From positions 1-64,000 of the forward strand of contig JAJVIQ010000013.1 in NCBI GenBank assembly GCA_022071965.1: 64,000 bases of DNA, read 5' to 3'. This DNA is from Gammaproteobacteria bacterium (GTDB taxonomy: Bacteria > Pseudomonadota > Gammaproteobacteria > JAJPIJ01). Position 1 is the first letter of the stretch. Every line of letters starts with the position of its first letter. Shown in pieces: positions 11,010 through 28,265 of this stretch. The position numbers and the translations under genes are program-made. The notes beneath the pieces were generated by a model that saw only the letters and a list, made by a program, of their open reading frames with translations, was not told the DNA's origin and did not search any database.

Positions 11010-13079
11010 TCACCCGCAGTACTCATCCAGCAGCGCCTGCTGCGCCGAACGTTGCTTGTGGGCTCCCGATGTCAGCCGCCTGTAGCTGCCGTCGGCATTG
11101 AGCACCCACGCCTGCGTGTTGTCGGAGAGGTAGTTGTGCAACGACTCCTCCACCACCCGGGCGAGCAGGCGTTTGTCCTCCACCGGAAAGCAGATCTCCA
11201 CGCGCTTGTAGAGGTTGCGCTCCATCCAGTCGGCGCTGGAAAGAAATACGAGCGGTTCACCGCCGTTGAAGAAGTAGAAAACGCGCGAATGCTCCAGCAG
11301 CCGCCCGACGATCGAGCGCACGTGGACATTCTCCGAGATCCCCTTGATCCCCGGCCGCAGCACGCATACGCCGCGTACGATGAGATCGATCCTGACCCCT
11401 GCCTGCGAGGCCGCGTACAGCGCGCCGATCACGGTGGGGTCGGTGAGCTGGTTCATCTTCGCCATGATCCGCGCCGGCCTGCCTGCGCGCGCCGCGTCGG
11501 CCTCCTGCCTGATGAGTGTGAGCATGCTCCTGTGCAGTGTGAATGGCGACTGCAGGAGCTTGCGCAGCTTGCCGGGTCGGCCGAGCGCGGTGAGCTGCTG
11601 GAAGACCTTGTGCACGTCCTCGCAGATGGCGACGTCGCACGTCAGCAGGCTGAAATCGGTGTACAGGCGCGCCGTGCGCGCATGATAGTTGCCCGTGCCG
11701 AGATGCACGTAGCGCTTCAGCTGGCGTTCCTCGCGGCGCACCACCAGCGCCATTTTCGCGTGCGTCTTGTAGCCCACGACGCCGTATACGACGTGCGCGC
11801 CGGCCTCCTGCAGCCGGTCGGCCAGTTCGATGTTGGCCTCCTCGTCGAAGCGCGCCCGCAGCTCGATGACGACGGTGACCTCCTTGCCTTTCTTGGCCGC
11901 GTCGATCAGCGCCTGCGCGATCACGGAGTCCGATCCCGTGCGGTACAGCGTCTGCTTGATGGCAAGCACCTTGGGATCCATGGCGGCCTGCCGCAGAAAG
12001 TCCACCACCGGGGTGAAGGACTGGAACGGATGCAGCAGCAGCAGGTCGTCCTTGCGGATGATCTCGAAGATGTCGTTGTCGCCGGCAAGCCGCCTGGGCT
12101 GGCTTGGCGTGAATGGCGCGTACTTCAGATCGGGCCGGGCAACCAGGTCGTGTATGGCCATCAGGCGCGAAAGGTTGACCGGGCCGTTCACCTGGTAGAT
12201 GTCGTCCTCGCCCAGCTCGAACTGCGCCAGCAGGAAGCTGATCATCTCCGGCGGGCAGTTGTCGGCGATCTCGATGCGCACAGCATCGCCAAATCGGCGT
12301 GAGGGCAGCTCGCCCTTCAGCGCACGCAGCAGGTCCTCCACGTCTTCGTCGTCCACGAACAGGTCGCTGTTGCGGGTGACGCGGAACTGGTAACAGCCCG
12401 TCGCCTTCATGCCCGGAAACAGGTCCCCGACGTGCGCGTGGATGATGGAGGAGAGGAACACGAAATCGTGCGGACCCTGCGCGTAGCTCTCCGGCACGTT
12501 GATGACCCGCGGCAGCGAGCGCGGTGCCTGAACGATCGCGATTCCGCTGTTGCGGCCGAAGGCGTCCTTGCCCTCCAGCGACACCATGAAGTTCAGGCTC
12601 TTGTTGAGGATCTTCGGAAACGGATGAGCCGGGTCGAGTCCCATCGGACTGAGCACCGGCAGCAGCTCGCGGTTGAAGTAGCGCTTCACCCAGTCGGCGA
12701 GCTTGCCGTCCCAGTCCGCGCGCCGCGGAAAGCGCACGCCTTCACCGGCGAGCCGGGGGATCAATTCCTCGTTGAGCACGCGGTATTGCTCGACAACGAG
12801 CGCGTGGGTGACCTCGCTGATGCGCCGCAGCTGGTCCGGAGCGCGCAACTGGTCGGGCCCGGCCTGCAGCGATCCATAGTCGGCCTGCTGCTTCAGTCCG
12901 GAGACGCGGATTTCGAAGAACTCGTCGAGATTGGTGCTGACGATGCACAGGAACTTCAGGCGCTCGAGCAGCGGCACGTTCTCGTCCCGGGCCAGGTCGA
13001 GCACGCGCCGGTTGAACTCCAGTTGCGAGAGCTCGCGGTTGATGTACAGCTCGGGGCGTTGCAGGTCGCTCGGATCCAT
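11010..13079 (-). CDS. ppk: Polyphosphate kinase 1
   Basis: 689-residue enzyme that reversibly polymerises the gamma-phosphate of ATP into polyphosphate. The four-domain PPK1 architecture is complete: INRELSQLEFNRRVL at the N-terminus, and the catalytic PLD-like region with VGYKTHAKM and HLGTGNYHARTARLYTDF, containing the autophosphorylated His. The ATG at 13079 gives MDPSDLQRPELYINREL; an upstream in-frame ATG at 13121 lacks a ribosome-binding site. The gene lies ~1 kb from pstSCAB-phoU. No Pho box was found upstream. Confidence 0.95.
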   Translation of the reverse strand: MDPSDLQRPELYINRELSQLEFNRRVLDLARDENVPLLERLKFLCIVSTNLDEFFEIRVSGLKQQADYGSLQAGPDQLRAPDQLRRISEVTHALVVEQYRVLNEELIPRLAGEGVRFPRRADWDGKLADWVKRYFNRELLPVLSPMGLDPAHPFPKILNKSLNFMVSLEGKDAFGRNSGIAIVQAPRSLPRVINVPESYAQGPHDFVFLSSIIHAHVGDLFPGMKATGCYQFRVTRNSDLFVDDEDVEDLLRALKGELPSRRFGDAVRIEIADNCPPEMISFLLAQFELGEDDIYQVNGPVNLSRLMAIHDLVARPDLKYAPFTPSQPRRLAGDNDIFEIIRKDDLLLLHPFQSFTPVVDFLRQAAMDPKVLAIKQTLYRTGSDSVIAQALIDAAKKGKEVTVVIELRARFDEEANIELADRLQEAGAHVVYGVVGYKTHAKMALVVRREERQLKRYVHLGTGNYHARTARLYTDFSLLTCDVAICEDVHKVFQQLTALGRPGKLRKLLQSPFTLHRSMLTLIRQEADAARAGRPARIMAKMNQLTDPTVIGALYAASQAGVRIDLIVRGVCVLRPGIKGISENVHVRSIVGRLLEHSRVFYFFNGGEPLVFLSSADWMERNLYKRVEICFPVEDKRLLARVVEESLHNYLSDNTQAWVLNADGSYRRLTSGAHKQRSAQQALLDEYCG

Positions 13080-13136
13080 CGTGGCCGTCGCGCGCCCCGT
13101 ACGGGCGGGTCGCGGGAGCATTTCGTTATTGATTCA

Positions 13137-13150
13137 GCATGTTATCATGC
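13137..13150. promoter_or_regulatory. GCATG-N4-CATGC palindrome in ppk/methyltransferase divergent region
   Basis: A perfect 5-bp inverted repeat with a TTAT spacer in the short AT-rich patch between divergent ppk and the methyltransferase gene. It overlaps an extended -10-like TGTTATCAT (13140-13148) reading rightward, so it could be an operator. No regulator is implied by the sequence. Confidence 0.3.
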
Positions 13151-13223
13151 GCCGCGCACCGGCATCATGACCGCGTTACGACATCCTCCCGATTCCACCG
13201 ACCCCCGATCACCGGAGCAATGC

Positions 13224-14048
13224 ATGGCTCAGAATGCCGCGCCCCGCGGCGCCCGCACCATGGCGCAGAAGGCCGATCGCCACGTTCTCTACCAGCGCTC
13301 CGTGCAGTGCGCGGAGTCCGAGGTCGACTTCGTCGCCGAGGTCTACGGCAAGCTGCGGCGGCGCCGGCCGGCGACACTGAGGGAGGATTTCTGCGGCACC
13401 GCGCTGGTGGCCTGCGAGTGGGTCCGCCGCCGTCCCGGCAACATCGCCTTCGGCGTCGACCTCGACCCGGCGGTACTCGCCTGGGGCCGGGAACACAATC
13501 TCGCGGCACTGTCCTCCTCGGCGAAGTCGCGCATCACGCTGCTCAACGAGGACGTGCTGGAGGTGCGCACGCGTCCGGTGGACGTGGTGATGGCGATGAA
13601 CTTCAGCTACTGGCTGTTCAAGACGCGCGATCGGATGAAGTCCTACTTCCGGAACGTGCGCGCCGGGTTGGCGGCCGACGGGATGTTCTTCCTCGACGCG
13701 ATGGGCGGCTTCGACGCCTTCCGTGTTCTGCGCGAGCGCACGAAACATCGCGGCTTCACCTACGTCTGGCACCAGGCCGCCTACAATCCCGTCAGCGGCG
13801 ATTTCCTCTGCCACATCGACTTCTCGTTCCCGGACGGCTCCCGGCTTCCGAAGGCCTTTACCTACGACTGGCGGTTGTGGACGCTGCCGGAGCTGCGCGA
13901 GATGTTGCTGGAATCGGACTTCCGCAAGGTGACCATGTACTGGGAAGGCTGGGATGAGAAGAAGCAGAAGGGCACCGGGGAGTTCGAGCCAACCGAAGTG
14001 GGTGAGCCGGAGGCCGGCTGGATCGCCTATATCGTCGCCGAGAAGTGA
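13224..14048 (+). CDS. Class I SAM-dependent methyltransferase of unknown substrate
   Basis: 274 residues with a Rossmann methyltransferase core: EDFCGTALVACEW (the SAM-binding loop), VDLDPAVLAWG (acidic end of beta-2), LNEDVLEV and VVMAMNFSYWLF (motif IV region). A DFSFPDGS/FTYDWRLWTLPEL segment follows, typical of a conserved proteobacterial subfamily without characterised substrate. The ATG at 13224 follows GGAG by 6 bases; an upstream ATG at 13167 has no such site. It reads toward pstS and ends 23 bp before the pstS Pho box. Confidence 0.75.
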   Translation: MAQNAAPRGARTMAQKADRHVLYQRSVQCAESEVDFVAEVYGKLRRRRPATLREDFCGTALVACEWVRRRPGNIAFGVDLDPAVLAWGREHNLAALSSSAKSRITLLNEDVLEVRTRPVDVVMAMNFSYWLFKTRDRMKSYFRNVRAGLAADGMFFLDAMGGFDAFRVLRERTKHRGFTYVWHQAAYNPVSGDFLCHIDFSFPDGSRLPKAFTYDWRLWTLPELREMLLESDFRKVTMYWEGWDEKKQKGTGEFEPTEVGEPEAGWIAYIVAEK

Positions 14049-14070
14049 GTCCGACCTGCGGAGCCGCCGG

Positions 14071-14104
14071 GTGTCATAATCCCGTAACAAACCCTCCGTC
14101 TAAT
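14071..14104 (+). promoter_or_regulatory. Pho box and -10 of the pstS promoter
   Basis: Direct-repeat PhoB half-sites GTGTCAT (14071-14077) and CCGTAAC (14082-14088) separated by AATC, giving the 11-bp period of the Pho box. The -10 hexamer TCTAAT (14099-14104) begins exactly 10 bp after the box, the standard class-II arrangement where the Pho box replaces the -35. The pstS start is about 60 bases further down. The same geometry occurs at phoB and the porin gene. Confidence 0.85.
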
Positions 14105-14165
14105 GGCTCGGCGAGGGCGATGGTCTCGCCCGGCCGAATCCCTGTTCCAGCGGAGGATGAAGTCC

Positions 14166-15161
14166 ATGAAGTCAGACACGGATCTCCTGGCCGCCGCGAT
14201 CGCCGCGGGAGTGCTCGCGCAGGCGCCGGCCGCGGCGGCCGAGGGTGTCGCCCGGGTCGATCCGGCACTGAAGGACTACGAGAAGTCGAGCGGCGTCTCC
14301 GGCAACCTCTCCAGCATCGGTTCCGACACGCTCAACAACCTCATGACGCTGTGGGCCGAGGACTTCAAGCGCCTGTACCCGAACGTGAACATCCAGATCC
14401 AGGGCGCCGGTTCCTCGACCGCGCCGCCGGCGCTGACCGAGGGCACCGCCAACGTCGGCCCCATGAGCCGACTGATGAAGGACGAGGAGATCCAGGCCTT
14501 CGAGGGCAAGCACGGCTACAAGCCGACGGCCGTCCCGGTGGCCGTCGACGCGCTGGCGGTCTACGTGCACAAGGACAATCCCACCCCGGGCCTGAGCATG
14601 GCGCAGGTCGATGCCATCTTCTCGGCCACGCGCAAGTGCGGTTACGAGAAGGACATCCTCGCCTGGGGCGACGCCGGGCTCACGGGCGAGTGGGCGAGCA
14701 AGCCTGTCCAGCTGTTCGGCCGCAACTCCGTCTCCGGCACCTACGGCTATTTCAAGGAGCACGCGCTGTGCAAGGGTGACTTCCGGGACTCGGTGAACGA
14801 GCAGCCCGGTTCGGCCTCCGTGGTGCAGGGTGTGACCAAGTCGCTCAACGGCATCGGCTACTCCGGCATCGGCTACAAGACCTCGGGCGTGCGCGGGGTG
14901 CCGCTCGCCGCCGAAGGCGCCGACTACGTGGAGGCGACGGCCGAGAACGCGCTGTCGGGCAACTATCCGCTGGCACGCTTCCTCTACATCTACGTGAACA
15001 AGGCCCCCAACGAGCCGTTGCCGCCGCTGGAGCTGGAGTTCATGAAGATGGTGCTGTCGAAGGCCGGCCAGGAAGACACGATCAAGGACGGATACATCCC
15101 GCTGCAGGCACCGGCTGCCGACAAGGCGTTGAGCCTCCTTGAGGCGGCCGGCGGGCCGTAG
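14166..15161 (+). CDS. pstS: Phosphate ABC transporter substrate-binding protein PstS
   Basis: 331-residue periplasmic phosphate receptor. The signal peptide is about 22 residues ([17 protein letters not shown] then EG); its n-region is unusually acidic (MKSDTD). The mature protein shows the PstS phosphate-binding elements: [32 protein letters not shown] and [12 protein letters not shown]. It belongs to the longer PstS type of Pseudomonas-like bacteria rather than the E. coli type. I chose the ATG at 14166, 9 bases after GGAGG, over an in-frame ATG at 14157 that abuts that site. It leads the pst operon and is preceded by a Pho box. Confidence 0.94.
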
Positions 15162-15191
15162 CGGAGAGGCGGGAATAGCGCGCCTCGGCGG

Positions 15192-15213
15192 GCCTTGCGA
15201 AGTTTCGCGAGGC
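15192..15213. other. Hairpin between pstS and pstC
   Basis: Inverted repeat GCCTTGCG / CGCGAGGC (one G-T wobble) around loop AAGTTT, within the 112-bp gap after pstS. No T-run follows, so it is not a full terminator. Such intercistronic hairpins often stabilise the transcript of an abundant binding-protein gene relative to permease genes; that role is inference. Confidence 0.5.
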
Positions 15214-15273
15214 GCAGGCGGATCCCCCCGACGAGAACGCCGCACGCTGACAGGCCGGCATCGATCAACGTCC

Positions 15274-17559
15274 ATGACAACCACCGCCGACGACGCCGAG
15301 GTTCTCGCACGCCTGGACGCGCGGGTCGTCAGCCGTCGGCGCCTGTGGCGCGAGATCAGGGACCGCGGGTTCCGATACACCATGTGGATCGGCGGCATCG
15401 CCGTCATCGCCGCCATCGCGCTCATTTTCTTCTACCTCCTGTACGTGGTGTTCCCCCTGTTCCGGCCGGCGAGGGTCGAGGCCGTCACCAGCTACCCGCT
15501 GCCCGGCGGCTCCACCCCGACGGTGCTGCTCACCACCGAGGAGTACGGCGAGATCGGGGTGCGGATGCTCGCCGATGGCCGCGTGGTGTTCTTCGACACC
15601 GCCACCGGCCGCGTCACGGGCGAGGAAAAACCGGAGGTCCTGGACAGCAGCCCGATCACCGCCTTCGGGGCGGGACGCCAGAACCAGGGGCTCGCCGCCT
15701 ATGGACTCGCCGACGGCCGTGCGCTCGTGCTGAAACCGTCGTTCACGGTGAGCTATCCCCGGGACAGGCGCCGGATCGCCGCCGGGCTCACCTATCCCGC
15801 CGGCGAGGAGGCCGTGGTCGTCGACCCGGACGGTCGGCCGCTCACGATCCTCGCCGTTCAGGGCGGCGACTCGAAGACAACCATACTGGCCAAGACCGCC
15901 GATCAGCGACTGGTGATGGCGCGCGTGTCCAGGCAGGCCCCGACCCTGGACTTCGGCGACGGCGAACGGACCGTCAAGACCGAGAATTTCACGCTGCCGA
16001 TCGAGACCGCCCACGTGGAGCGTCTGCTGCTCGATGCCAGTCAGAGCCACCTCGTAGCCGTCAACGGCGACGGCAGCCTCGATTACTACGACATTCGCAA
16101 GCCGGGGGACGCCGTATTGGTGGATCACGCGGCGGCCGTGCCGCCCGGGGCGCACGTCACCGACATACGCTGGCTGGCAGGCGGCATATCTCTGCTCGTG
16201 GCCGATACCCGCGGGGTCGTCACGCAGTGGTTCCCGGTGCGCGACGTCAACAACGAGTACACGCTCGCCCGCGTGCGCGAGTACAGGATGGGCAACCGGC
16301 CGGTGACGGCGATCGTCCCGGAATTCTATCGCAAGGGGATCGGGGCGCTGGATGCGTCGGGAGGTTTCGGCCTTTACCACACCACCGCGGAGCGCGAAAT
16401 CGCCCGGCAGGAGGTGACCGACAAGCCGCTCAGGGCCGCGGTCATCTCCCCGCGCGCCGATCGGATGTTCATCGAGGACGCGGGCGGCACGCTGCATTAC
16501 TGGAGGCTGCACAACGAGCATCCGGAGATCTCCTGGCATTCGCTGTGGGGAAAGGTCTGGTACGAAAGCCGCCGGCAGCCGGAGTACATCTGGCAGTCCT
16601 CGGCGGCCAACAGCGACTTCGAGCCGAAGTTCTCCCTGACACCGCTCAGCGTGGGGACGCTCAAGGCGGCGTTCTACGCCATGCTGTTCGCGGTGCCGCT
16701 GGGCATCATGTCGGCGATCTACACGGCATACTTCATGAATTCGCGCATGCGCGAGGTCGTCAAGCCCGCCATCGAGCTCATGGGCGCGCTGCCGACGGTG
16801 ATACTCGGTTTTCTCGCCGGACTGTGGCTGGCACCGCTCGTCGAGTCCGACCTGGTGAGCGTGCTGCTGTACTTCCTGCTGGTCCCGTCGGCGGTGCTGC
16901 TCGCGGCATGGGGATGGTCGCGCATGCCGGAGGGCGTTCGTCACCGGGTGCCCGACGGCTACGAGGCGCTGCTGCTGATTCCGGTGATACTCCTGGCAAG
17001 CGCCGTGGTGATGCTGACCGGGCCGGGGATCGAGGATGCGATTTTCGGCGGCGACGCGCCGCAATGGGTGACCCGGCATCTGGGGCTGCGATACGACCAG
17101 CGCAATTCGCTGGTGGTTGGCATCGCGATGGGGTTCGCGGTGGTGCCGATCATCTTTTCGATCAGCGAGGACGCGATCATCGGCGTGCCGAAGCACCTGA
17201 CGATCGGGTCGCTGGCGCTGGGCGCCACGCCCTGGCAGACGCTGACGCGGGTCGTGCTGTTGACGGCTAGCCCGGGCATCTTTTCCGCGGTCATGATCGG
17301 GCTGGGGCGCGCGGTCGGGGAGACCATGATCGTGCTGATGGCGACCGGCAACACGCCGGTCATGGACTTCAATATCTTCGAGGGATTCCGCGCCCTGTCG
17401 GCGAACACCGCGGTGGAGATGCCCGAATCCGAGGTCGACAGCACACACTACCGCATCCTGTTCCTCGCCAGCCTCATCCTGTTCCTGTTCACGTTCCTCT
17501 TCAACACGATTGCCGAGATCGTGCGTCATCGCCTGCGCGCGAAGTACAGCCATCTGTGA
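15274..17559 (+). CDS. pstC: Phosphate ABC transporter permease PstC with large periplasmic domain
   Basis: 761-residue inner-membrane permease, more than twice the ~320 residues of E. coli PstC. One transmembrane helix (about residues 36-60) is followed by ~385 periplasmic residues rich in short beta-strand patterns (for example YPLPGGSTPTVLLTT, then repeated DGRVVFFD, DGRALVLK, GDGSLDYYD), suggestive of a beta-propeller-like domain. The permease core starts near residue 450 and includes the EAA-type loop [14 protein letters not shown]. Long PstC proteins are known in Pseudomonas- and Vibrio-like bacteria. pstA begins inside its stop codon (GTGA). Confidence 0.92.
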   Translation: MTTTADDAEVLARLDARVVSRRRLWREIRDRGFRYTMWIGGIAVIAAIALIFFYLLYVVFPLFRPARVEAVTSYPLPGGSTPTVLLTTEEYGEIGVRMLADGRVVFFDTATGRVTGEEKPEVLDSSPITAFGAGRQNQGLAAYGLADGRALVLKPSFTVSYPRDRRRIAAGLTYPAGEEAVVVDPDGRPLTILAVQGGDSKTTILAKTADQRLVMARVSRQAPTLDFGDGERTVKTENFTLPIETAHVERLLLDASQSHLVAVNGDGSLDYYDIRKPGDAVLVDHAAAVPPGAHVTDIRWLAGGISLLVADTRGVVTQWFPVRDVNNEYTLARVREYRMGNRPVTAIVPEFYRKGIGALDASGGFGLYHTTAEREIARQEVTDKPLRAAVISPRADRMFIEDAGGTLHYWRLHNEHPEISWHSLWGKVWYESRRQPEYIWQSSAANSDFEPKFSLTPLSVGTLKAAFYAMLFAVPLGIMSAIYTAYFMNSRMREVVKPAIELMGALPTVILGFLAGLWLAPLVESDLVSVLLYFLLVPSAVLLAAWGWSRMPEGVRHRVPDGYEALLLIPVILLASAVVMLTGPGIEDAIFGGDAPQWVTRHLGLRYDQRNSLVVGIAMGFAVVPIIFSISEDAIIGVPKHLTIGSLALGATPWQTLTRVVLLTASPGIFSAVMIGLGRAVGETMIVLMATGNTPVMDFNIFEGFRALSANTAVEMPESEVDSTHYRILFLASLILFLFTFLFNTIAEIVRHRLRAKYSHL

Positions 17560-19220
17560 ACGAGAATCTGCAGACCTGGGTGAGGAGCGGCAAGCCGTGG
17601 ATATGGCTCAACGCCGGGATGGCGAGCGCCGCCATCATCATGGTGGTCGGATTGCTGCTCTACATCGCGGTGCGCGGTCTGAGCCACTTCTGGCCGGACC
17701 CGGTGGTCCGTTTCGAATACGCCGAGGCCGACGGCAAACTGAGCAAGGTGTTGGGCGAGATCGTGGAAACGGAGACGCTCAGCGCCGCGCGCCTGAGGGC
17801 CATCGGCATGACGCCGCCACCCGGTGAGACGCGCGTGCAGCGCGTGCTCATCAAGACCGCCAATCGCGATCTGACGGGCGCGGACTTCCAGTGGTTCCTG
17901 CGCCACAATGTCCGCAACGAGGAGCATCCCGAGGGCGTGCTGGAACTGGAGCGCGAAGAGTGGGGCAACTTCATCGGCTTCCCGTTGGCGCTGAAGGAGA
18001 ATGGCAAGGTCGTGGAGCGCGGATCGGCCCTGAAGTCCGGGCTCGCCGCCCGCCTGCAGCGACGCGCCGCCATCAAGGCGGAGATCCGCGACATCGAGAA
18101 GGACCGCATCGGCGCGGTGAATCATCGCCTCGAGCAGATGCGGCGCCAGGAACGCAAGGCCGAGGCGGGCGGGATGCTGGATGCGGAGGCGCGGGCCGCG
18201 TTCGACGAGGAGCGCAAGTCGCTGGACCGCCAGTACGCGGCGCTCACCGGGCAGCTCGGAAAGTTCTACGCGGACATCAGGCGCGACTCGCTGCTGATGA
18301 AGACCGTGGACGGTACCGAGGTCGACATCCCGTTCGAGAAGATCGTGCGCGCGTACGAACCCAACGCCATGGGGCCGTTCGACCGGCTGGTGTTCTTCTT
18401 CGGCAAGTTCCGGGAGTTCGTCGCCGATGATCCGCGCGAGGCGAACACGGAGGGCGGCATCCACCCGGCCATATTCGGCACGGTGCTGATGGTCATCATC
18501 ATGGCGGTGATGGTCACGCCGTTCGGGGTGATGGCGGCCGTCTACCTGAGCGAGTACGCGAAACAGGGACCGCTCACGCGCATGATCCGGATCGCGGTCA
18601 ACAATCTCGCCGGTGTGCCGTCCGTCGTCTACGGCGTGTTCGGCCTGGGCTTCTTCGTCTATTTTCTTGGCGGCAGCATCGATGAACTCTTTTATCCGGA
18701 GGCGCTGCCCGCACCCACCTTCGGCACGCCTGGCCTGCTGTGGTCATCGCTGACTCTCGCGCTCCTGACCGTCCCGGTGGTGATCGTGGCGACTGAGGAG
18801 AGCCTTTCCCGCATCCCGAAAACGATACGGGAAGGCAGTCTTGCGCTGGGCGCCACCAAGGCCGAGACGCTATGGCGCACGGTGCTGCCGATGGCCACAC
18901 CCGGCATGATGACCGGCGTCATCCTCGCCATCGCACGCGCCGCCGGCGAGGTCGCGCCGCTGATGCTGGTGGGCGTCGTCAAACTGGCACCCTCCCTGCC
19001 GCTGGACGGCAACGCACCGTTCCTGCACCTGGACCGCAAGTTCATGCATCTGGGTTTCCACATCTACGACGTCGGCTTCCAGAGTCCGAATGTCGAAGCC
19101 GCGCGCCCGCTGGTCTATGCCACGGCCTTCCTGCTGGTCCTGGTGATCGTGGTGCTCAACCTGACGGCGATCCGAATTCGCAACCGTTTGCGGGAGAAGT
19201 ACAATGCAGCTGAGAGCTGA
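17556..19220 (+). CDS. pstA: Phosphate ABC transporter permease PstA with coiled-coil periplasmic insertion
   Basis: 554-residue permease, about twice the E. coli length. Helix 1 spans roughly residues 17-38; residues 40-300 are extracytoplasmic and include a highly charged stretch (about 160-245, with segments such as [15 protein letters not shown] and [15 protein letters not shown]) with heptad character, a probable coiled coil. The permease core follows, with the EAA loop [20 protein letters not shown]. Starts with GTG overlapping the pstC stop by 4 bp; overlaps pstB by 17 bp. It most likely pairs with PstC, so the two insertions may touch in the periplasm. Confidence 0.92.
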
Positions 19221-20094
19221 GGATGCCGTCCTGACTGACAGCAGCGAGAACTGGCCGCGCCATGCGGCCGGCGGGGCTCCGACCCACGCGGTTGAGCCTG
19301 CCGCGATGCAGAGCTTCGCCGACGAGACCCCGGACGACACGAGACCCTGTCTCACGGTCGAGCAGCTGAATCTCTGCTACGGCCCGAAGCAGGCCCTGAG
19401 ATCCATCGACATGGACATCCCCGAGAAGCGGGTGACCGCCTACATCGGCCCCAGCGGTTGCGGCAAGTCCACGCTGTTGCGCTGCTTCAACCGCATGAAC
19501 GATCTCTACGACAACGTGCGCGTCGAGGGATCAATCGCGCTGCACGGCCAGAACATCTACGACAAATCCGTCAACGTCGCCGACCTGCGGCGGCGCGTGG
19601 GCATGGTGTTCCAGAAGCCCAATCCGTTCCCCAAGTCCATCTACGAGAACGTCGCCTACGGACTGCGGCTCCAGGGCATCAACAAGCGCCGCATCCTCGA
19701 TCGCGTGATCGAACGATCGCTGAAGAGCGCGGCCTTGTGGGACGAGGTGAAGGATCGGCTGCATGACAACGCGCTCGGTCTCTCCGGGGGCCAGCAGCAA
19801 CGCCTGGTCATCGCACGCGCGATCGCCATCGAGCCGGAGGTGCTGTTGCTCGACGAGCCGTGCTCGGCGCTGGACCCGATCTCCACATTGAAGATTGAGG
19901 AGCTCATCTACGAGCTGAAATCGAACTACACGATCATCATCGTCACGCACAACATGCAGCAGGCGGCGCGCGTGTCGGACTACACCGCGTTCATGTACCT
20001 CGGCAGCCTGGTCGAGTTCGGCCCGACGAGAAGGATATTCACCAACCCCAAGGAAAAGCAGACCGAGGATTACATCACCGGTCGCTACGGCTGA
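19204..20094 (+). CDS. pstB: Phosphate ABC transporter ATPase PstB
   Basis: 296-residue ATPase that powers phosphate import. Walker [11 protein letters not shown]-loop [11 protein letters not shown], signature LSGGQQQR, Walker [13 protein letters not shown] and the switch His in VTHNMQQA are intact. About 45 residues precede the ABC core, longer than in E. coli and without recognisable motifs. The ATG at 19204 lies inside pstA with GGGAGAAG upstream, implying coupled translation. phoU follows by 34 bp. Confidence 0.97.
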
Positions 20095-20128
20095 TCGGCG
20101 GAAAGACGGCGAGGCGGAGACGCGCACT

Positions 20129-20836
20129 ATGCAGATGCCGGCCCATATTTCGCAGGAGTTCGAGCTGGAGCTCGAGAACATCCGTGCCAAGGTGCTGACC
20201 ATGGGCGGCCTCGTCGAGCAGCACCTCGCCAAGGCCACCGATGCCCTGCAACAGCGGCGCTTGGAGCTCGCCGACGAGGTCAGCGCCGACGACTTCAAGG
20301 TCAACACCCTGGAGGTGAATATCGACGAGGAGTGCACGCAGATACTGGCGCGCCGGCAACCGGCCGCCGGCGACCTGCGGCTGGTTCTCGCCGTGATCAA
20401 GATCATCCGCGACCTCGAACGCGTCGGCGACGAGACCGCGAAGATCAGCCGCATGGTGCTGCGGCTGATCGAGAACGAGAGCCCGAAGGCCTACTACATC
20501 AACGTGCTCGCCATGGCGAACCATGTTCGCCGTATCCTGCGCGACGCGCTCGATGCCTTCGCCCGCTCCGATGCGAATGCCGCACTGCACATCGCGCGCG
20601 AGGATCCGTCCGTCGACCGCGAATACGACGCCATCATGCGGCAGCTGGTGACCTACATGATGGAGGATCCGCGCAGCATTGGCACCGTCCTCAACGTGGT
20701 CTGGGTGGTGCGCGCGCTGGAACGCATCGGCGATCACGTCAACAACATCTGCGAGAGCATCATCTACCAGGTCAAGGGCATGGACGTGCGCCACGCCGAC
20801 CTGGACGAGATCGCCTCGAACATCCACAACGAGTAG
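20129..20836 (+). CDS. phoU: Phosphate-signalling regulator PhoU
   Basis: 235-residue all-helical protein with two PhoU three-helix bundles. The metal-cluster motifs are present: NTLEVNIDEECTQILARRQP and LRLVLAVIKIIRDLERVGDE in the first half, VWVVRALERIGDHVNNICE in the second. PhoU links Pst activity to PhoR kinase/phosphatase balance. Last gene of the pst operon; it ends facing phoR across a large inverted repeat. Confidence 0.96.
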   Translation: MQMPAHISQEFELELENIRAKVLTMGGLVEQHLAKATDALQQRRLELADEVSADDFKVNTLEVNIDEECTQILARRQPAAGDLRLVLAVIKIIRDLERVGDETAKISRMVLRLIENESPKAYYINVLAMANHVRRILRDALDAFARSDANAALHIAREDPSVDREYDAIMRQLVTYMMEDPRSIGTVLNVVWVVRALERIGDHVNNICESIIYQVKGMDVRHADLDEIASNIHNE

Positions 20837-20888
20837 TGCCGCGCCGGTGTCGCCGCCGGCTCACGGAAAACGGCCGCGGCGCCTTCCC

Positions 20889-20988
20889 GGCGGTCTGCCC
20901 TGCCTCGCTTGGCTACCGCTGCGTCGTGCTCCTCTGTCCATGCTGCGCGCGCCGCCGAGGCGCGCCAGGCGAGGCAGGGCAGACCGCC
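20889..20988. repeat. Large inverted repeat between convergent phoU and phoR
   Basis: Two 25-base arms, 20889-20913 and 20964-20988, are reverse complements with a single G-T wobble; the outer 20 bases match perfectly (left arm starts GGCGGTCTGCCCTGCCTCGC). The spacer is 50 bases and itself GC-rich. No T-run flanks either side. It could act as a bidirectional transcription barrier between the converging genes or be a remnant of a repeat element. Confidence 0.85.
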
Positions 20989-21014
20989 TCAGGCATCGGG
21001 CATCTGCAGTTACC

Positions 21015-22319
21015 TCAGGCGGACTCGGCCTGTTCGGCCCCGACCACGCGCCCGGGCGGAAAGTCGCAGCGGAAGAGGCTGCCCTTGCCGATGACGCTCT
21101 CGATGTGCAGGGTGGCGGCGTGGCGGTGGAGCACGTGCTTGACGATCGACAGGCCCAGGCCCGTGCCGCCGCTGTGGCGCGAGCGTCCGGCTTCCGCGCG
21201 GTAGAAGCGCTCGGTGATGCGCGGCAGGTGCAGATCCGGAATTCCGATGCCGTTGTCCTCGACCGCGAAATGCGCGCCCGCCCCGTCGCCGTACCAGCGT
21301 ATGCGTATGAATCCCCGGGGCGGAGTGTACTGCACCGCGTTGGTGACCAGGTTCGAGAACGCGCTGTAGAGTTCGCTCTCCGATCCCAGCAGGTGCAGCG
21401 TCGGATCGGCCTCCAGCGCGAACAGGTGGCGTCGGTCGCCGCTCAAGGTCTGCGCCTCGCCGTGTATCCGGCGCAGCATCTCCGGCACGCAGACCCGCTC
21501 GCCCGGAAGCGTCGACGGCTCGTTCTCGAGCCGCGAGACGAGCAGCAGATCCCGTATCATGCTCGTCATCCGATCCGTCTGCGCCTGCATCTGCGACAAC
21601 ACCGGCTTCCAGGCCTCGGGGCACTGCCGCTCCTGCGCGCGCAGCGTCTGCAGATAGCCGCTGACCACGGTCAGCGGGGTGCGCAACTCATGCGACACGT
21701 TGGCGAGGAAGTCGCTGCGCATCTGGCCCATGCGGTGCATGCGGGTGACGTCGCGCGCCAGGAACAGGCGCATGTCCTCGGCACAGGGCGCCAGGCGCAG
21801 GCTCAGCCGCAACCCGGGGTCGATCGGGGAGGGGATGTCGACGCTGGTGTCGGCTGCGGTCTCCGACTCCAGCAGCGCCGCCACGTCGGGATGGCGGAGG
21901 AGATTGGTGAGACGCTGGCGGCGGTCATCCGGCCAGCGTATCCCCAACTGGTCCTGGGCCGCGACGTTGGCCCAGCGGATCTCACCCTCCGGACCGAGCA
22001 TGACCGTCGCGTCGGGCAGCGCCGAGGTGGCATCCTCGAACTGCTTCAGCAGTGTCGCGAGCCGGCGCTTGCGCCGGCGATGACGGGTGCGCAGGAAATC
22101 GATCTCGGAGCAGATCGCCTCGAATACGCCGGGTACGTCGGGGGCCGGATGCGCCTTGCGGTCGCGCAGCCAGTCGAGCAACTGCCGCAGCCGCCAGTGC
22201 GACCACGCCGCGTATCCGGCAGCCGCGATGAGCAGGCCGGCCAGCAGCTGGCCGCTTGCCAGTCCGGACAGCAACGCGAGAACGAGAAATGCGGTGGCCC
22301 GCCGGAGATCGGCCTGCAT
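21015..22319 (-). CDS. phoR: Phosphate regulon sensor histidine kinase PhoR
   Basis: 434-residue membrane sensor kinase. Two adjacent hydrophobic segments (about residues 7-40) form a membrane hairpin with almost no periplasmic loop, as in other PhoR proteins that sense via the Pst/PhoU complex. A PAS-like region (ATSALPDATVMLGPEGEIRW) precedes the H-box FLANVSHELRTPLT, N-box LVTNAVQYTP, G1 VEDNGIGI and G2 GGTGLGLSIV. The start at 22319 gives MQADLRRATAFLV. It is downstream of phoB on the minus strand with an 82-bp gap. Confidence 0.95.
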   Translation of the reverse strand: MQADLRRATAFLVLALLSGLASGQLLAGLLIAAAGYAAWSHWRLRQLLDWLRDRKAHPAPDVPGVFEAICSEIDFLRTRHRRRKRRLATLLKQFEDATSALPDATVMLGPEGEIRWANVAAQDQLGIRWPDDRRQRLTNLLRHPDVAALLESETAADTSVDIPSPIDPGLRLSLRLAPCAEDMRLFLARDVTRMHRMGQMRSDFLANVSHELRTPLTVVSGYLQTLRAQERQCPEAWKPVLSQMQAQTDRMTSMIRDLLLVSRLENEPSTLPGERVCVPEMLRRIHGEAQTLSGDRRHLFALEADPTLHLLGSESELYSAFSNLVTNAVQYTPPRGFIRIRWYGDGAGAHFAVEDNGIGIPDLHLPRITERFYRAEAGRSRHSGGTGLGLSIVKHVLHRHAATLHIESVIGKGSLFRCDFPPGRVVGAEQAESA

Positions 22320-22401
22320 TGGCGCTGTGAACCTATTGAAGCCCGGTCTCCGCCAAGTGTAGGAACCGCGCCCCGCACTGTCCAATTGCGCGGACGTACG
22401 G

Positions 22402-23088
22402 CTACTGGGTGGAGAGGCGGTAGCCGACGCTGCGCACGGTCTGAATCAGGCAATCGTATCCGTGCCCGGAGAGCACCTTGCGCAGCCTGCGAATGTGCAC
22501 GTCCACCGTTCGCTCCTCGATGTAGACGTGATCGCCCCAGACCTGGTCGAGCAGCTGGTTACGGGTGAACACCCGTTCCGGGTGACTGATGAAGAAGTGC
22601 AGCAGGCGGAATTCGGTCGGGCTCAGATTCAGGTTGACCCCACGTACCGTGACCCGACGGGTCTCCGGGTCCAGCTTCAGGCCGGCGACCTCCATGGTCT
22701 CCCCGGTGCCGGTTGGCGTCGATCGCCTCAGCACGGCGCGCACCCGCGCCAGGAGCTCCAGGGTGGAGAACGGCTTGGTGACGTAGTCGTCGGCGCCGCT
22801 GTCCAGGCCCCGGATCTTGTCGGCCTCCGCATCCCTGGCCGTGAGCATGATGATCGGGATGCCCTGAGTGCGCGGGTCGCGCTTCAGGCGCCGCGCGTAG
22901 TCGAGCCCGCTGACGCCCGGCAGCATCCAGTCGAGCAGGATCAGGGCCGGGGCCTGCGCCGCCAGCGCGCCTGCCGCCTCCACGGCGCTTCCCGCCTCGT
23001 GGCAGCGGAATCCCTCCGCGGACAGGGTGAACTGCAGCATCTGCCGGATGGCCGGTTCGTCATCGACGATGAGGACTTGACTGTTCAT
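22402..23088 (-). CDS. phoB: Phosphate regulon response regulator PhoB
   Basis: 228-residue OmpR-family response regulator. The receiver domain has acidic VDDEP, the phosphoacceptor Asp in LLDWMLPG, LTARD and the KPF switch Lys. The winged-helix DNA-binding domain ends with VDVHIRRLRKVLSGHG, containing the recognition helix. The ATG at 23088 yields the standard MNSQVLIVDDEPAIR. Its promoter carries a near-consensus Pho box, so it should autoactivate. Confidence 0.96.
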   Translation of the reverse strand: MNSQVLIVDDEPAIRQMLQFTLSAEGFRCHEAGSAVEAAGALAAQAPALILLDWMLPGVSGLDYARRLKRDPRTQGIPIIMLTARDAEADKIRGLDSGADDYVTKPFSTLELLARVRAVLRRSTPTGTGETMEVAGLKLDPETRRVTVRGVNLNLSPTEFRLLHFFISHPERVFTRNQLLDQVWGDHVYIEERTVDVHIRRLRKVLSGHGYDCLIQTVRSVGYRLSTQ

Positions 23089-23112
23089 GGTCAAAGCGCG
23101 CCTTCGGCGCCC

Positions 23113-23146
23113 ATTAGATATCAGGGATCTTACAGGTTCGTGACAG
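23113..23146 (-). promoter_or_regulatory. Pho box and -10 of the phoB promoter
   Basis: On the minus strand: half-sites CTGTCAC and CTGTAAG separated by GAAC (plus-strand positions 23129-23146), then 10 bp, then -10 TCTAAT (23113-23118). Both half-sites match the PhoB consensus closely. The -10 hexamer is identical to that of pstS and the spacing is the same. Confidence 0.9.
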
Positions 23147-23196
23147 TGCCCCGGAACTCCCCGGACCATTGCGGCCGCCCCCGGGCGGTCATGTCG

Positions 23197-23230
23197 CTGA
23201 CATGCATTCGTCATGAACGCCGGATAGCAT
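23197..23230 (+). promoter_or_regulatory. Pho box-like element and -10 upstream of the phosphate porin
   Basis: Half-sites CTGACAT (23197-23203) and TCGTCAT (23208-23214) separated by GCAT, then 10 bp and a -10-like TAGCAT (23225-23230). The second half-site is weak, but the 7-4-7-10 geometry equals that at pstS and phoB. It points toward the porin gene, about 90 bases downstream, and is 50 bp from the phoB box on the other strand. Confidence 0.65.
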
Positions 23231-23318
23231 CTGTACCCGATCACCCTTTTCTCCACGCGCCCACGAGGGCGTGGGCGCGCGGGGACCTCCAAACAGCGTT
23301 CGACAAGAGGAAGACGTC

Positions 23319-24713
23319 ATGTCTCAGATCCACAGGAAGCGGTTGCCGCTGGTGCTGGCGGCGTGCGTGCTCGCGGCGGCGCCCGCACGGGCCGCCGATG
23401 ACGCGATGATGCGGTTGCTGGGAGTCCTCCGGGACAAGGGCACGCTCGATGAGGCGACGTACGAGTCGCTGGTGAATGCCGCGAAGGCCGACGCGGAGCA
23501 TCCGGGCGCCGCCAGGGAGGACATCGGGCGGAACGAGAAGAAGACGCCGAGGATCGATACCGAGAACAAGTTCGAGATCACCTCCGCCGACGGAGACTTC
23601 CAATGGCGGTTCATCGGCCTGTTGATGGCCGACTATTACATCCCGGATTCGGACATGACCCGGATCGACACCGAGGGCGAGATCCGGCGGGCGCGCCTCG
23701 GCATGCGGGGCAGGCTCTGGCAGCACTGGATCTGGAAGCTCGAGTACGATTTTGCCGGCGGCGACGCCTCGCTCAAGGACGGCTACCTCGGCTACGAGGA
23801 GGAATACGCGGGCGGGGAGTGGAGCGTGAAGGTCGGCCAGCATCATGTGCCGTTTGGCCTGGCCACGATGTCCAGCTCCAAGTACATGCTGTTCCTGGAA
23901 CGGCCGCTCATGTCCGACGTCGTACTGCAGCCGTCCCGACAGCTGGGATCCTCGTTCTTCGTCAACGGCGGCAACGACGGGCAGTTGTGGACGTTCCAGA
24001 CGGGCATCTACGGGGCGGAGGAGGTGGGCGATCCGGATACCTTCGACGAGCTCAGCATTGCCGCGCGCGGGACGGTGAATCCGTACATCGAGGACAAGAG
24101 CCACCTCGTGCATCTCGGCGGCGCGGTCTGGTACAAGGATCCCAACGACACCGAGGTGCGCGTTCGTCAGCGCCCGGGCGTGATCCGGGCCTCCGACAGC
24201 CGCTTCATCGACGCGGACTTCGGTACCGGCAACGTGGAAGACATCCTCGCCTTCAACGCCGAGGCCGTGGCGGTCTGGGGACCGGCGCACCTCCAGGCCG
24301 AGTACACCAACTGGAACGTCTCCCCCAATGGCGCCGCCTTCGGCGGCGACGACGTGACACTCGACGGGTATTACGTGGAGGCCAGCTACTTCCTCACCGG
24401 CGAGTCGATGCGCTTCGAGACGGACGAGGGCCATTTCAGCGGCATGAAGCCCAAGGGCATCGTGGGCCGGGGCGGCATCGGCGCCTGGCAGCTGGCGGCG
24501 CGCTACGACGTCATGGATCTCAACGACTTCGAGGATGGCGGCGTGAAAGGCGGCCGCGAGGAGGATTTCCGCGTGGCCCTGAACTGGTACCCGACCAATA
24601 CCATCCGCTTCATGGCCGACTACGTGACGGTGCTCGACCTCGACCGACCCGGCAGCGGGTTCGACGGAGACGAACCCAGCTCGGTCAACCTCCGCGCCAT
24701 GGTCTACTGGTAA
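23319..24713 (+). CDS. Phosphate-selective porin (OprO/OprP family)
   Basis: 464-residue outer-membrane channel. Signal peptide of about 25 residues ending ARA before ADDAMM. A short periplasmic helical region (residues ~25-70) precedes a beta-barrel with alternating strands such as WKLEYDFAGGDASLKDGYLGYE and VKVGQHHVPFGLATMSSS, the latter characteristic of OprO/P proteins. The C-terminus ends VYW, an aromatic terminus expected for BAM-dependent insertion. ATG preceded by AGAGGAAG. It is divergent from phoB with a Pho box-like element, consistent with phosphate or polyphosphate uptake under starvation. Confidence 0.9.
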   Translation: MSQIHRKRLPLVLAACVLAAAPARAADDAMMRLLGVLRDKGTLDEATYESLVNAAKADAEHPGAAREDIGRNEKKTPRIDTENKFEITSADGDFQWRFIGLLMADYYIPDSDMTRIDTEGEIRRARLGMRGRLWQHWIWKLEYDFAGGDASLKDGYLGYEEEYAGGEWSVKVGQHHVPFGLATMSSSKYMLFLERPLMSDVVLQPSRQLGSSFFVNGGNDGQLWTFQTGIYGAEEVGDPDTFDELSIAARGTVNPYIEDKSHLVHLGGAVWYKDPNDTEVRVRQRPGVIRASDSRFIDADFGTGNVEDILAFNAEAVAVWGPAHLQAEYTNWNVSPNGAAFGGDDVTLDGYYVEASYFLTGESMRFETDEGHFSGMKPKGIVGRGGIGAWQLAARYDVMDLNDFEDGGVKGGREEDFRVALNWYPTNTIRFMADYVTVLDLDRPGSGFDGDEPSSVNLRAMVYW

Positions 24714-24728
24714 TCCGCACTGCCGCGG

Positions 24729-24762
24729 CCGGGAGGGCAAGATCGCCCTCCCGGCACTTTTT
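24729..24762 (+). terminator. Rho-independent terminator after the phosphate porin gene
   Basis: Perfect 10-bp stem CCGGGAGGGC / GCCCTCCCGG with loop AAGATC, followed by CAC and TTTTT. It starts 16 bases after the porin stop codon. Confidence 0.93.
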
Positions 24763-25574: not shown

Positions 25575-28265
25575 ATGGAAGAACGCTATCACCCCGCCGC
25601 CATCGAGGCCGAGGTTCAGGCCCGCTGGGAACGGGATCAGACCTTTCGCGCCACCGAGGACCTGGGCGGCGAATCGGGGCGGGAGAAGTTCTACTGCCTG
25701 TCGATGTTTCCCTATCCTTCGGGCAAGCTGCACATGGGGCACGTGCGCAACTACACGATCGGGGACGTTGTTACGCGCTATCACCGCATGCGCGGCAGGA
25801 ATGTCCTGCAGCCGATGGGCTGGGACGCGTTCGGGCTGCCGGCGGAGAATGCCGCCATCCAGCACAACGTGCCGCCGGCGAAGTGGACCTACGAGAACAT
25901 CGCCTACATGCGCACGCAGCTCAAGTCGCTGGGATTCGCCATCGACTGGAGCCGCGAGATCGCCACCTGCGATCCGAAGTACTACAAGTGGAACCAGTGG
26001 CTGTTCCTGCGGATGCTCGAGAAGGGGATCGCCTACAAGAAGACCCAGGTCGTGAACTGGGATCCGGTAGACCAGACGGTGCTGGCCAACGAGCAGGTGA
26101 TCGACGGCCGCGGCTGGCGCACCGGCGCGGTCGTCGAGAAGCGCGAGATACCCGGGTATTACCTCGGGATCACCCGCTACGCCGAGGAGCTGCTCGCGGA
26201 TCTCGACAAGCTGCCCGGCTGGCCGGAGCGCGTGAAGACCATGCAGGCCAATTGGATCGGCAGGTCCCATGGCGTGCGGTTCGCGTTCCCGCACGACATT
26301 CGCGACGAGACCGGCGCGTTGGTGGGCGACGGCCGGCTGTGGGTCTTCACCACGCGCGCCGACACGATCATGGGCGTGACCTTCTGCGCGGTCGCGGCGG
26401 AGCATCCGCTGGCCGCCCACGCGGCGAAGGGCAACCCGGCGCTCGCCGAATTCATCGAGCGGTGCCGGCACGGATCGGTCATGGAGGCCGACCTCGCGGC
26501 CATGGAGAAGGAGGGCATGCCGACGGGCCTGCACGTCTCTCATCCGCTGACCGGCGAGAAGGTGGAGATCTGGGTGGGCAATTACGTGCTCATGGGCTAC
26601 GGGGAGGGCGCCGTCATGGCCGTCCCCGCTCACGACGAGCGGGATTTCGGCTTCGCCCTGAAATATGGACTGCCGATCAGACAGGTGGTCGCGGTGGAAG
26701 GCGAGTCATTCACCACCGAGCGCTGGCAGGAATGGTACGCCGACAAGGCCCGCGGGCGCTGCGTCAACTCGGGGCGCTACGACGGACTCCCCTATGAGGC
26801 CGCCGTCGATGCCATCGCCGCGGATCTGGCGGCACGCGGTCTTGGCGGGAAGAAGGTGCAATGGCGGCTGCGGGACTGGGGTGTATCCCGCCAGCGCTAC
26901 TGGGGTTGCCCCATACCCATCATCCACTGCCGTGCCTGCGGGGACGTGCCGGTGCCGGACGAGCAACTGCCGGTGGTGCTGCCGGAGGACTGCATCCCCG
27001 ACGGCTCGGGCAACCCGCTCGACAGGCGCGCGGATTTCCTCGCCTGCGTCTGTCCGCGGTGCGGCGGTCCGGCGCGCCGCGAGACCGATACGATGGACAC
27101 CTTCGTCGATTCCTCGTGGTACTACGCCCGCTATGCCTGCCCGCACAACGAGACGGCGATGGTGGACGCCGCGACCGGGTACTGGATGCCGGTGGACCAG
27201 TACATCGGCGGCATCGAGCACGCCATTCTGCACCTGCTGTACTCGCGCTTCTGGAGCAAGGTGATGCGCGATCTGGGCCTCGTGAAGTATGACGAGCCCT
27301 TCGAGCGGCTGCTGACGCAGGGCATGGTGCTCAACCACGTCTTCTCCCGCCGCACGGAAAAGGGCGGGATCCAGTACTACGCACCGGAGGAGGTCGAGAT
27401 CCAGCACGACGATGGCGGCCGCATCTGCGGCGCGAAGTCGTCGACGGACGGTGCGCCGGTGGTCTACGAGGGCGTCGGCACGATGTCCAAGTCCAAGCGC
27501 AACGGCGTCGATCCGCAGGCACTCATCGAACACTACGGCGCGGACACCGCGCGCTTCTTCATGATGTTCGCCTCGCCGCCCGAGCAGACCCTGGAATGGA
27601 GCGATTCCGGCGTGGAGGGGGCCTACCGCTTCCTGCGCCGACTCTGGACATTTGCGTTCAAATGCCAGGCGAACATTCGCCAGGAACTGAAGGAGCAGAG
27701 CAATGGCCGGTCCGCCAAAATTGACTGGAGTAAGGTTGCACCCGAGCAGAAGGCTGCGCGCAGGGCGATTCATTTGCACCTGAAACAGGCGGCCTTCGAC
27801 CTGGAGCGCCTGCAATTCAATACCGTCGCGTCCGCATGCATGAAGATATTGAATTCGCTCGAGGATGTGCCTGGCGCCGCCGAAGCGGGCAAGGGATACG
27901 CGCCATCAGCCAAGGTGCGCGACCAGATACTGACCGAAGGGACGAGCCTGTTACTCAGGCTGTTGTCGCCCATCTGCCCGCATGTCACCGATCACCTCTG
28001 GCGCGAACTCGGTTTCGGCAGCGACATGCTCGCCGCCGACTGGCCCGAGCCGGAGGACTCCGCCCTCGTGCTTGACGAGATCGAGCTCGTACTGCAGATC
28101 AACGGGAAGCTGCGCGGTAGTGTGCGTGTACCCGCGGGAGCGGACAGGGAGGCCACCGCCACGGCCGCACTGCGCACCGAGATCGCAGTAAAGTATGTCG
28201 CTGGCAAGCCCGTCAGGAACGTTGTAGTGGTACCCGGACGTCTGGTCAACATTGTAGTCGGTTGA
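25575..28265 (+). CDS. leuS: Leucyl-tRNA synthetase
   Basis: 896-residue class Ia synthetase. The HIGH-equivalent HMGH is in [19 protein letters not shown]; the editing domain is present, with the specificity region [12 protein letters not shown]; the KMSKS loop reads [13 protein letters not shown], so the first Lys of the consensus is Thr while the MSKS core is kept. Slightly longer than E. coli LeuRS (860). The ATG at 25575 gives [19 protein letters not shown], the standard N-terminus. lptE follows by 12 bp. Confidence 0.97.

Follow-up and report, generated by a model that had tools for sequence, protein, structure and literature searches.

The 230-bp stretch at 23089-23318 of the window, by which we mean the whole 64 kb of DNA analyzed, very probably holds two divergent sigma-70 promoters activated by PhoB~P, one serving an autoregulated phoB and the other, with tandem half-sites, a porin gene. 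Genes, sites, spacing and conservation are direct observations. The earlier note had proposed that PhoB controls both genes jointly, and this prediction gained support from other families, in which the same gene layout, an 11-bp period on both strands and a 10-bp distance to the -10 were found.

phoB and a porin gene lie head-to-head in a phosphate cluster

The source genome comprises 3.56 Mb in 39 contigs, and its phosphate cluster occupies 11010-24713 of the window. Genes follow in the order ppk (minus strand); pstS, pstC, pstA, pstB and phoU (plus strand); phoR and phoB (minus strand); and the porin gene (plus strand), with a single additional gene separating ppk from pstS. The profile score of pstC, 185.4, lies just below the curated cut-off of 196.45. 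The phosphate response regulator gene phoB (22402-23088, minus strand, 228 aa) encodes receiver and Trans_reg_C domains and scores 334.5 bits with TIGR02154, which places it above the equivalog cut-off of 296.2 and hence among the orthologues. Downstream of it, the sensor kinase gene phoR (21015-22385, minus strand; PhoR, HisKA and HATPase_c domains) reaches 401.6 bits with TIGR02966, for which the cut-off is 334.2. The porin gene (23319-24713, plus strand, 464 aa) belongs to the OprP/OprO family, with 175 bits for PF07396 against a threshold of 20.9 and structure matches to Porin P (2o4v, E 2.6e-21) and Porin O (4rjx, E 1.1e-19); none of the NCBIfam models searched with the porin matched. Family profiles and structure matches thus bear out the identities that had been given to phoB and the porin. 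In the Porin P/O alignment, RVRQRPGVIR stands opposite RIRPRMGMRG and three arginines align. These arginines may lie on the phosphate path. Phosphate is the predicted substrate of this OprP/OprO-type porin.

The start of phoB at 23088 and that of the porin gene at 23319 leave a 230-bp intergenic region, across which the two are arranged head-to-head. Neither terminators nor ordinary sigma-70 promoters were found when sought in 22900-23500, and 22300-24750 contained none of the known RNA families sought. A search of a plasmid collection with 22300-24713 returned nothing beyond short coding matches. The predicted 5′ leader of the porin gene contains a strong hairpin at 23256-23279 (10-bp stem, 4-base loop, fold z -2.48), which occurs as a single copy in the window and is partly kept in the sister species.

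Outward-facing predicted Pho boxes in the intergenic region

In PhoB-activated sigma-70 promoters, the Pho box replaces the -35 element and lies about 10 bp before the -10. Both sides of the intergenic region fit this geometry, with 10 bp from box to -10, and the same geometry is seen in relatives. As in the Pho box defined in PMC4415409, the window sites pair 7-bp direct repeats that resemble CTGTCAT and follow each other at a period of 11 bp. On the phoB side, the predicted box CTGTCAC-gaac-CTGTAAG (23129-23146, minus strand) is followed after 10 bp by the -10 hexamer TCTAAT (23113-23118, minus strand), and T.TAAT-like hexamers occupy the same place in most other loci. On the porin side, the proximal box CTGACAT-gcat-TCGTCAT (23197-23214, plus strand) precedes the hexamer TAGCAT (23225-23230, plus strand), again by 10 bp. 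Each box sequence occurs exactly once in the window. The earlier note had described two outward-facing boxes 50 bp apart, with 10 bp from either box to its -10, and these coordinates proved exact to the base.

What had been overlooked is an overlapping porin pair at 23186-23203, CGGTCAT-gtcg-CTGACAT, with 12/14 matches. Its distal half-site CGGTCAT (23186-23192, plus strand) sits one 11-bp step before the porin box, which yields an array of three half-sites and leaves 39 bp between the operators. Such a half-site recurs on the porin strand elsewhere. Being in register, it could raise occupancy via cooperative binding.

In the 64 kb, the pattern CTGTCAT-N4-CTGTCAT is matched in at least 11 of its 14 positions at four places, both strands considered; three of the four best window sites lie between phoB and the porin gene and one upstream of ppk. 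None of 300 dinucleotide shuffles of the intergenic region equaled the best observed pair on either strand, where the smallest p attainable with this number of shuffles is 1/301. The Pho-box pair is real and exceeds chance. Allowing C at position 7 as well added the pstS box at 14071-14088 and a match at 25586-25603 that falls within the next long reading frame. Over the whole genome, the pattern with up to 3 mismatches found 424 places versus 402 for a reversed control, and we dropped genome-wide motif counting as evidence because its signal was about that of the control. Motif matches alone are hence weak, and it is location and conservation that carry the case.

Matrices from other species single out the same stretches. 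A phoB-side matrix was built from 13 loci outside the genus (window, L032, L043 and L087 left out) and a porin-side matrix from 11 (window, L032, L034, L059 and L087 left out); neither contains the window or the sister species. With the former, the phoB box ranked first among 127934 positions in the 64 kb, the pstS box second, a site before ppk fourth and the porin pairs fifth and sixth. With the latter, 23186-23230 ranked first among 127912, scoring 18.7 with the next position at 9.5. The registers of the porin matrix are the best array matches of each locus, and L034, L059 and L087 had been omitted for their poor fit to the array; with loci chosen in this way, the matrix describes only fitting loci.

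The claim that the porin site is the weaker one depends on the measure. It did not hold for plain matches, of which the porin pairs have 11 and 12 out of 14 and the phoB box 11, but it did hold for the phoB matrix from other species (12.7-12.8 vs 17.9), and the porin -10 is also the poorer. By matrix score and -10, phoB may have the stronger site, but the porin operator holds the extra in-register half-site. TAGCAT is a weak -10 of low rank on its own, which counts against a PhoB-activated porin promoter.

A further half-site might touch the phoB -10. CTGATAT at 23118-23124 (minus strand) matches 5/7 positions in the 11-bp register, contacts the hexamer and is a candidate of low confidence. 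It is possible, again with low confidence, that it serves as an auto-repression site of phoB. According to PMC6194859, a weak site at the -10 of the E. coli phoB promoter mediates repression when PhoB is abundant. By analogy, phoB would be activated as proposed and, in addition, switched down when high PhoB~P fills this weak half-site and blocks RNA polymerase, an extension of the divergent-promoter reading that we regard as rather unlikely. The equivalent place in 13 other loci averages only 3.0/7, and the repressing site described there for E. coli consists of two half-sites with odd spacing.

Recurrence of layout and operators in relatives

The sister species (G003), whose porin is 85% identical to that of the window, keeps 16/18 bases of the phoB box, 15/18 of the proximal porin box and 6/6 of the porin -10. 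Only 17/39 bases between the operators are kept. Two changes count against our reading: the phoB -10 retains 4/6 bases and reads TCTGAC, and the distal porin half-site is shifted from its register by an insertion of 4 bp. The third half-site is hence a family-level tendency rather than a strict rule. At the place matching 14044-21797, the sister species (L089) is without a pst operon, and phoR-phoB-porin follow almost directly after the ppk block, which includes a methyltransferase-like gene, named by eye.

Among 369 class genomes, 48 contained relatives of the porin with E-values up to 1e-30, 60 in all, and we inspected the upstream side of every one of these, some stretches ending at contig edges. 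phoB stands head-to-head with the porin gene in 15 of the 60, each in a different genome and the source genome included. A counter-example of order is L100, where phoB, phoR and porin all point in the same direction. For comparison we used 16 distinct intergenic regions of 195 to 423 bp, among them those of the window and the sister species. L033 was added from a named collection, and L036 and L043 were removed before counting, their intergenic regions being identical to L032 and L034.

Over these 16 loci, the mean best pair score at period 11 was 11.62 on the phoB strand and 11.56 on the porin strand. Other periods from 8 to 24 gave 9.1-10.3, except for period 22 on the porin strand, a second peak at 11.0; the phoB strand reached 9.88 there, hardly a peak. 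The 47 porin relatives without adjoining phoB averaged 9.45 at period 11, almost no peak. Some of them, for instance L048, L091 and L058, nevertheless have excellent boxes. From this control set L060 (short upstream stretch) and L100 (phoB present) were removed, and four weaker matches, L038-L041, were included. In single-locus shuffles at p 0.05, 13/16 loci passed on each strand and 11/16 on both; L034, L042 and L087 failed on the porin strand and L059, L071 and L087 on the phoB strand. L032 passed on both, its best porin-strand pair being other than the promoter-proximal one. For porin-strand arrays, 10 bp to a TA...T hexamer was the best of spacings 5-16, and arrays of four half-sites scored 25.31 at this spacing versus 21.56-22.62 at others. 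With the same TA...T scoring the phoB strand peaked at spacing 12 (15.56), not 10 (15.19), probably because the hexamers there read TNTAAT; this peak counts against our reading.

These comparisons bear on whether the porin promoter belongs to the regulon at all. Only the phoB side might be a true PhoB promoter, the porin matches being a by-product and the porin constitutive or under another regulator. The weak porin -10 and the lower box score with the phoB-side matrix agree with such a view, as do the out-of-register distal half-site of the sister species and the absence of a clear box in most porin relatives without adjoining phoB. Nevertheless we consider it very improbable, given that the porin-strand array and its 10-bp spacing recur in other families, that the window porin promoter takes the top rank with a foreign matrix, and that the sister species keeps porin box and -10 but not the stretch between the operators.

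Alternatively, both boxes could form one operator in which PhoB~P interacts across 39-50 bp, so that each promoter assists the other or competes with it. The back-to-back layout of the boxes is indeed conserved. But the intergenic length varies across the 16 loci and the middle is poorly conserved in the sister species, which gives no sign of a set geometry from box to box, so that a single operator seems improbable; coupling of the boxes at a fixed distance is unsupported by the varying lengths. The simplest reading is that of two predicted PhoB~P-activated promoters, independent of each other.

A porin tree of 31 rows with full-length ORFs, taken from L033, L035-L037 and L042-L068, requires 4 changes of the head-to-head label, at least 3 of them forced by well-supported branches, and we hence rejected a single origin of the pair. 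Shuffled labels needed 10.2 changes on average and never as few in 500 trials. The trait is thus clustered, but does not form a single clean clade.

Other Pho-box-like sites

Upstream of pstSCAB-phoU, the Pho box GTGTCAT-aatc-CCGTAAC (14071-14088, plus strand) is followed 10 bp on by TCTAAT at 14099-14104. A Pho-box-like site with at least 11/14 matches, ATGTCGT-aacg-CGGTCAT (13167-13184, minus strand), lies some 45 bp before ppk begins. No -10 was found at the expected place, and its fourth rank as a box alone with the phoB-side matrix fell to 57 once the -10 was included. A site of similar score also precedes ppk in the sister species.

Elsewhere in the genome, a Pho box with 1 mismatch, among the four best, lies at L090:5380-5397 on the minus strand (G000:C11:145379-145396), upstream of a DUF47-Pit operon (PF01865, PF01384). 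It has no -10 at activating distance and overlaps a possible -10, from which PhoB could repress low-affinity uptake. Another site, with 2 mismatches, at L007:1501-1518 (G000:C2:92193-92210) lies close to where a radical-SAM-like ORF begins, which presumably resembles HpnH of hopanoid synthesis; this match may be due to chance.

Proposed regulation and comparison with known systems

From the features of the DNA we infer PhoB binding and activation at both promoters. When phosphate is scarce, PhoR would phosphorylate PhoB. Bound as a dimer to the one box at 23129-23146, PhoB~P would then substitute for a -35 and turn on phoB-phoR in positive autoregulation, and PhoB~P on the tandem half-sites 23186-23214 would turn on the OprP/OprO-type porin. 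With the nearby boxes at pstSCAB-phoU and possibly ppk, much of the cluster would come under PhoB control.

In E. coli, tandem half-sites are the target of PhoB~P, which acts with sigma-70 (PMC4415409 and PMC6194859), and phoB itself is PhoB-activated, its promoter affinity being among the highest of the regulon (PMC6194859, in part). The window resembles that promoter in a predicted PhoB box feeding phoB-phoR, in the proposed positive autoregulation and in candidate extra half-sites near the -10, although evidence for the third half-site near the phoB -10 is weaker in the window than in E. coli, and no divergent porin is described with the E. coli promoter in the accessible text of PMC6194859. 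Pseudomonas aeruginosa oprO likewise encodes an OprP/OprO-family porin with PhoB activation, which for the window is a prediction, and its expression drops in a phoB mutant; in contrast to the window porin, which is head-to-head with phoB, its PhoB box adjoins a TctD site (PMC4513871, in part). Several Pho boxes before one gene are also found at E. coli ugp (PMC4415409, in part). Unlike the ugp type, the window array consists of three half-sites. E. coli multi-Pho-box promoters such as ugp are not known to be divergent with phoB. Our title search of the open literature gave no phoB-porin divergent promoter; most subscription papers were outside its scope, so such a promoter may be published. 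The type of control is already known; our analysis adds that the head-to-head layout is recurrent and that the two operators differ.

We may tentatively speculate that the head-to-head phoB/porin pair is an old, conserved module of Gammaproteobacteria with a built-in asymmetry. A phoB promoter with two half-sites, perhaps with a repressing one besides, would face a porin array of three to four, giving an early, self-limited phoB and a sustained porin response.

The evidence suggests that the window porin is a member of the Pho regulon rather than a generic PF07396 porin. Within one 230-bp stretch, a single activator would serve a regulator gene and an output gene through differently built PhoB operators. 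Enough lineages share this layout for one to ask directly if the timing or amplitude of responses in a regulon depends on the number of half-sites.
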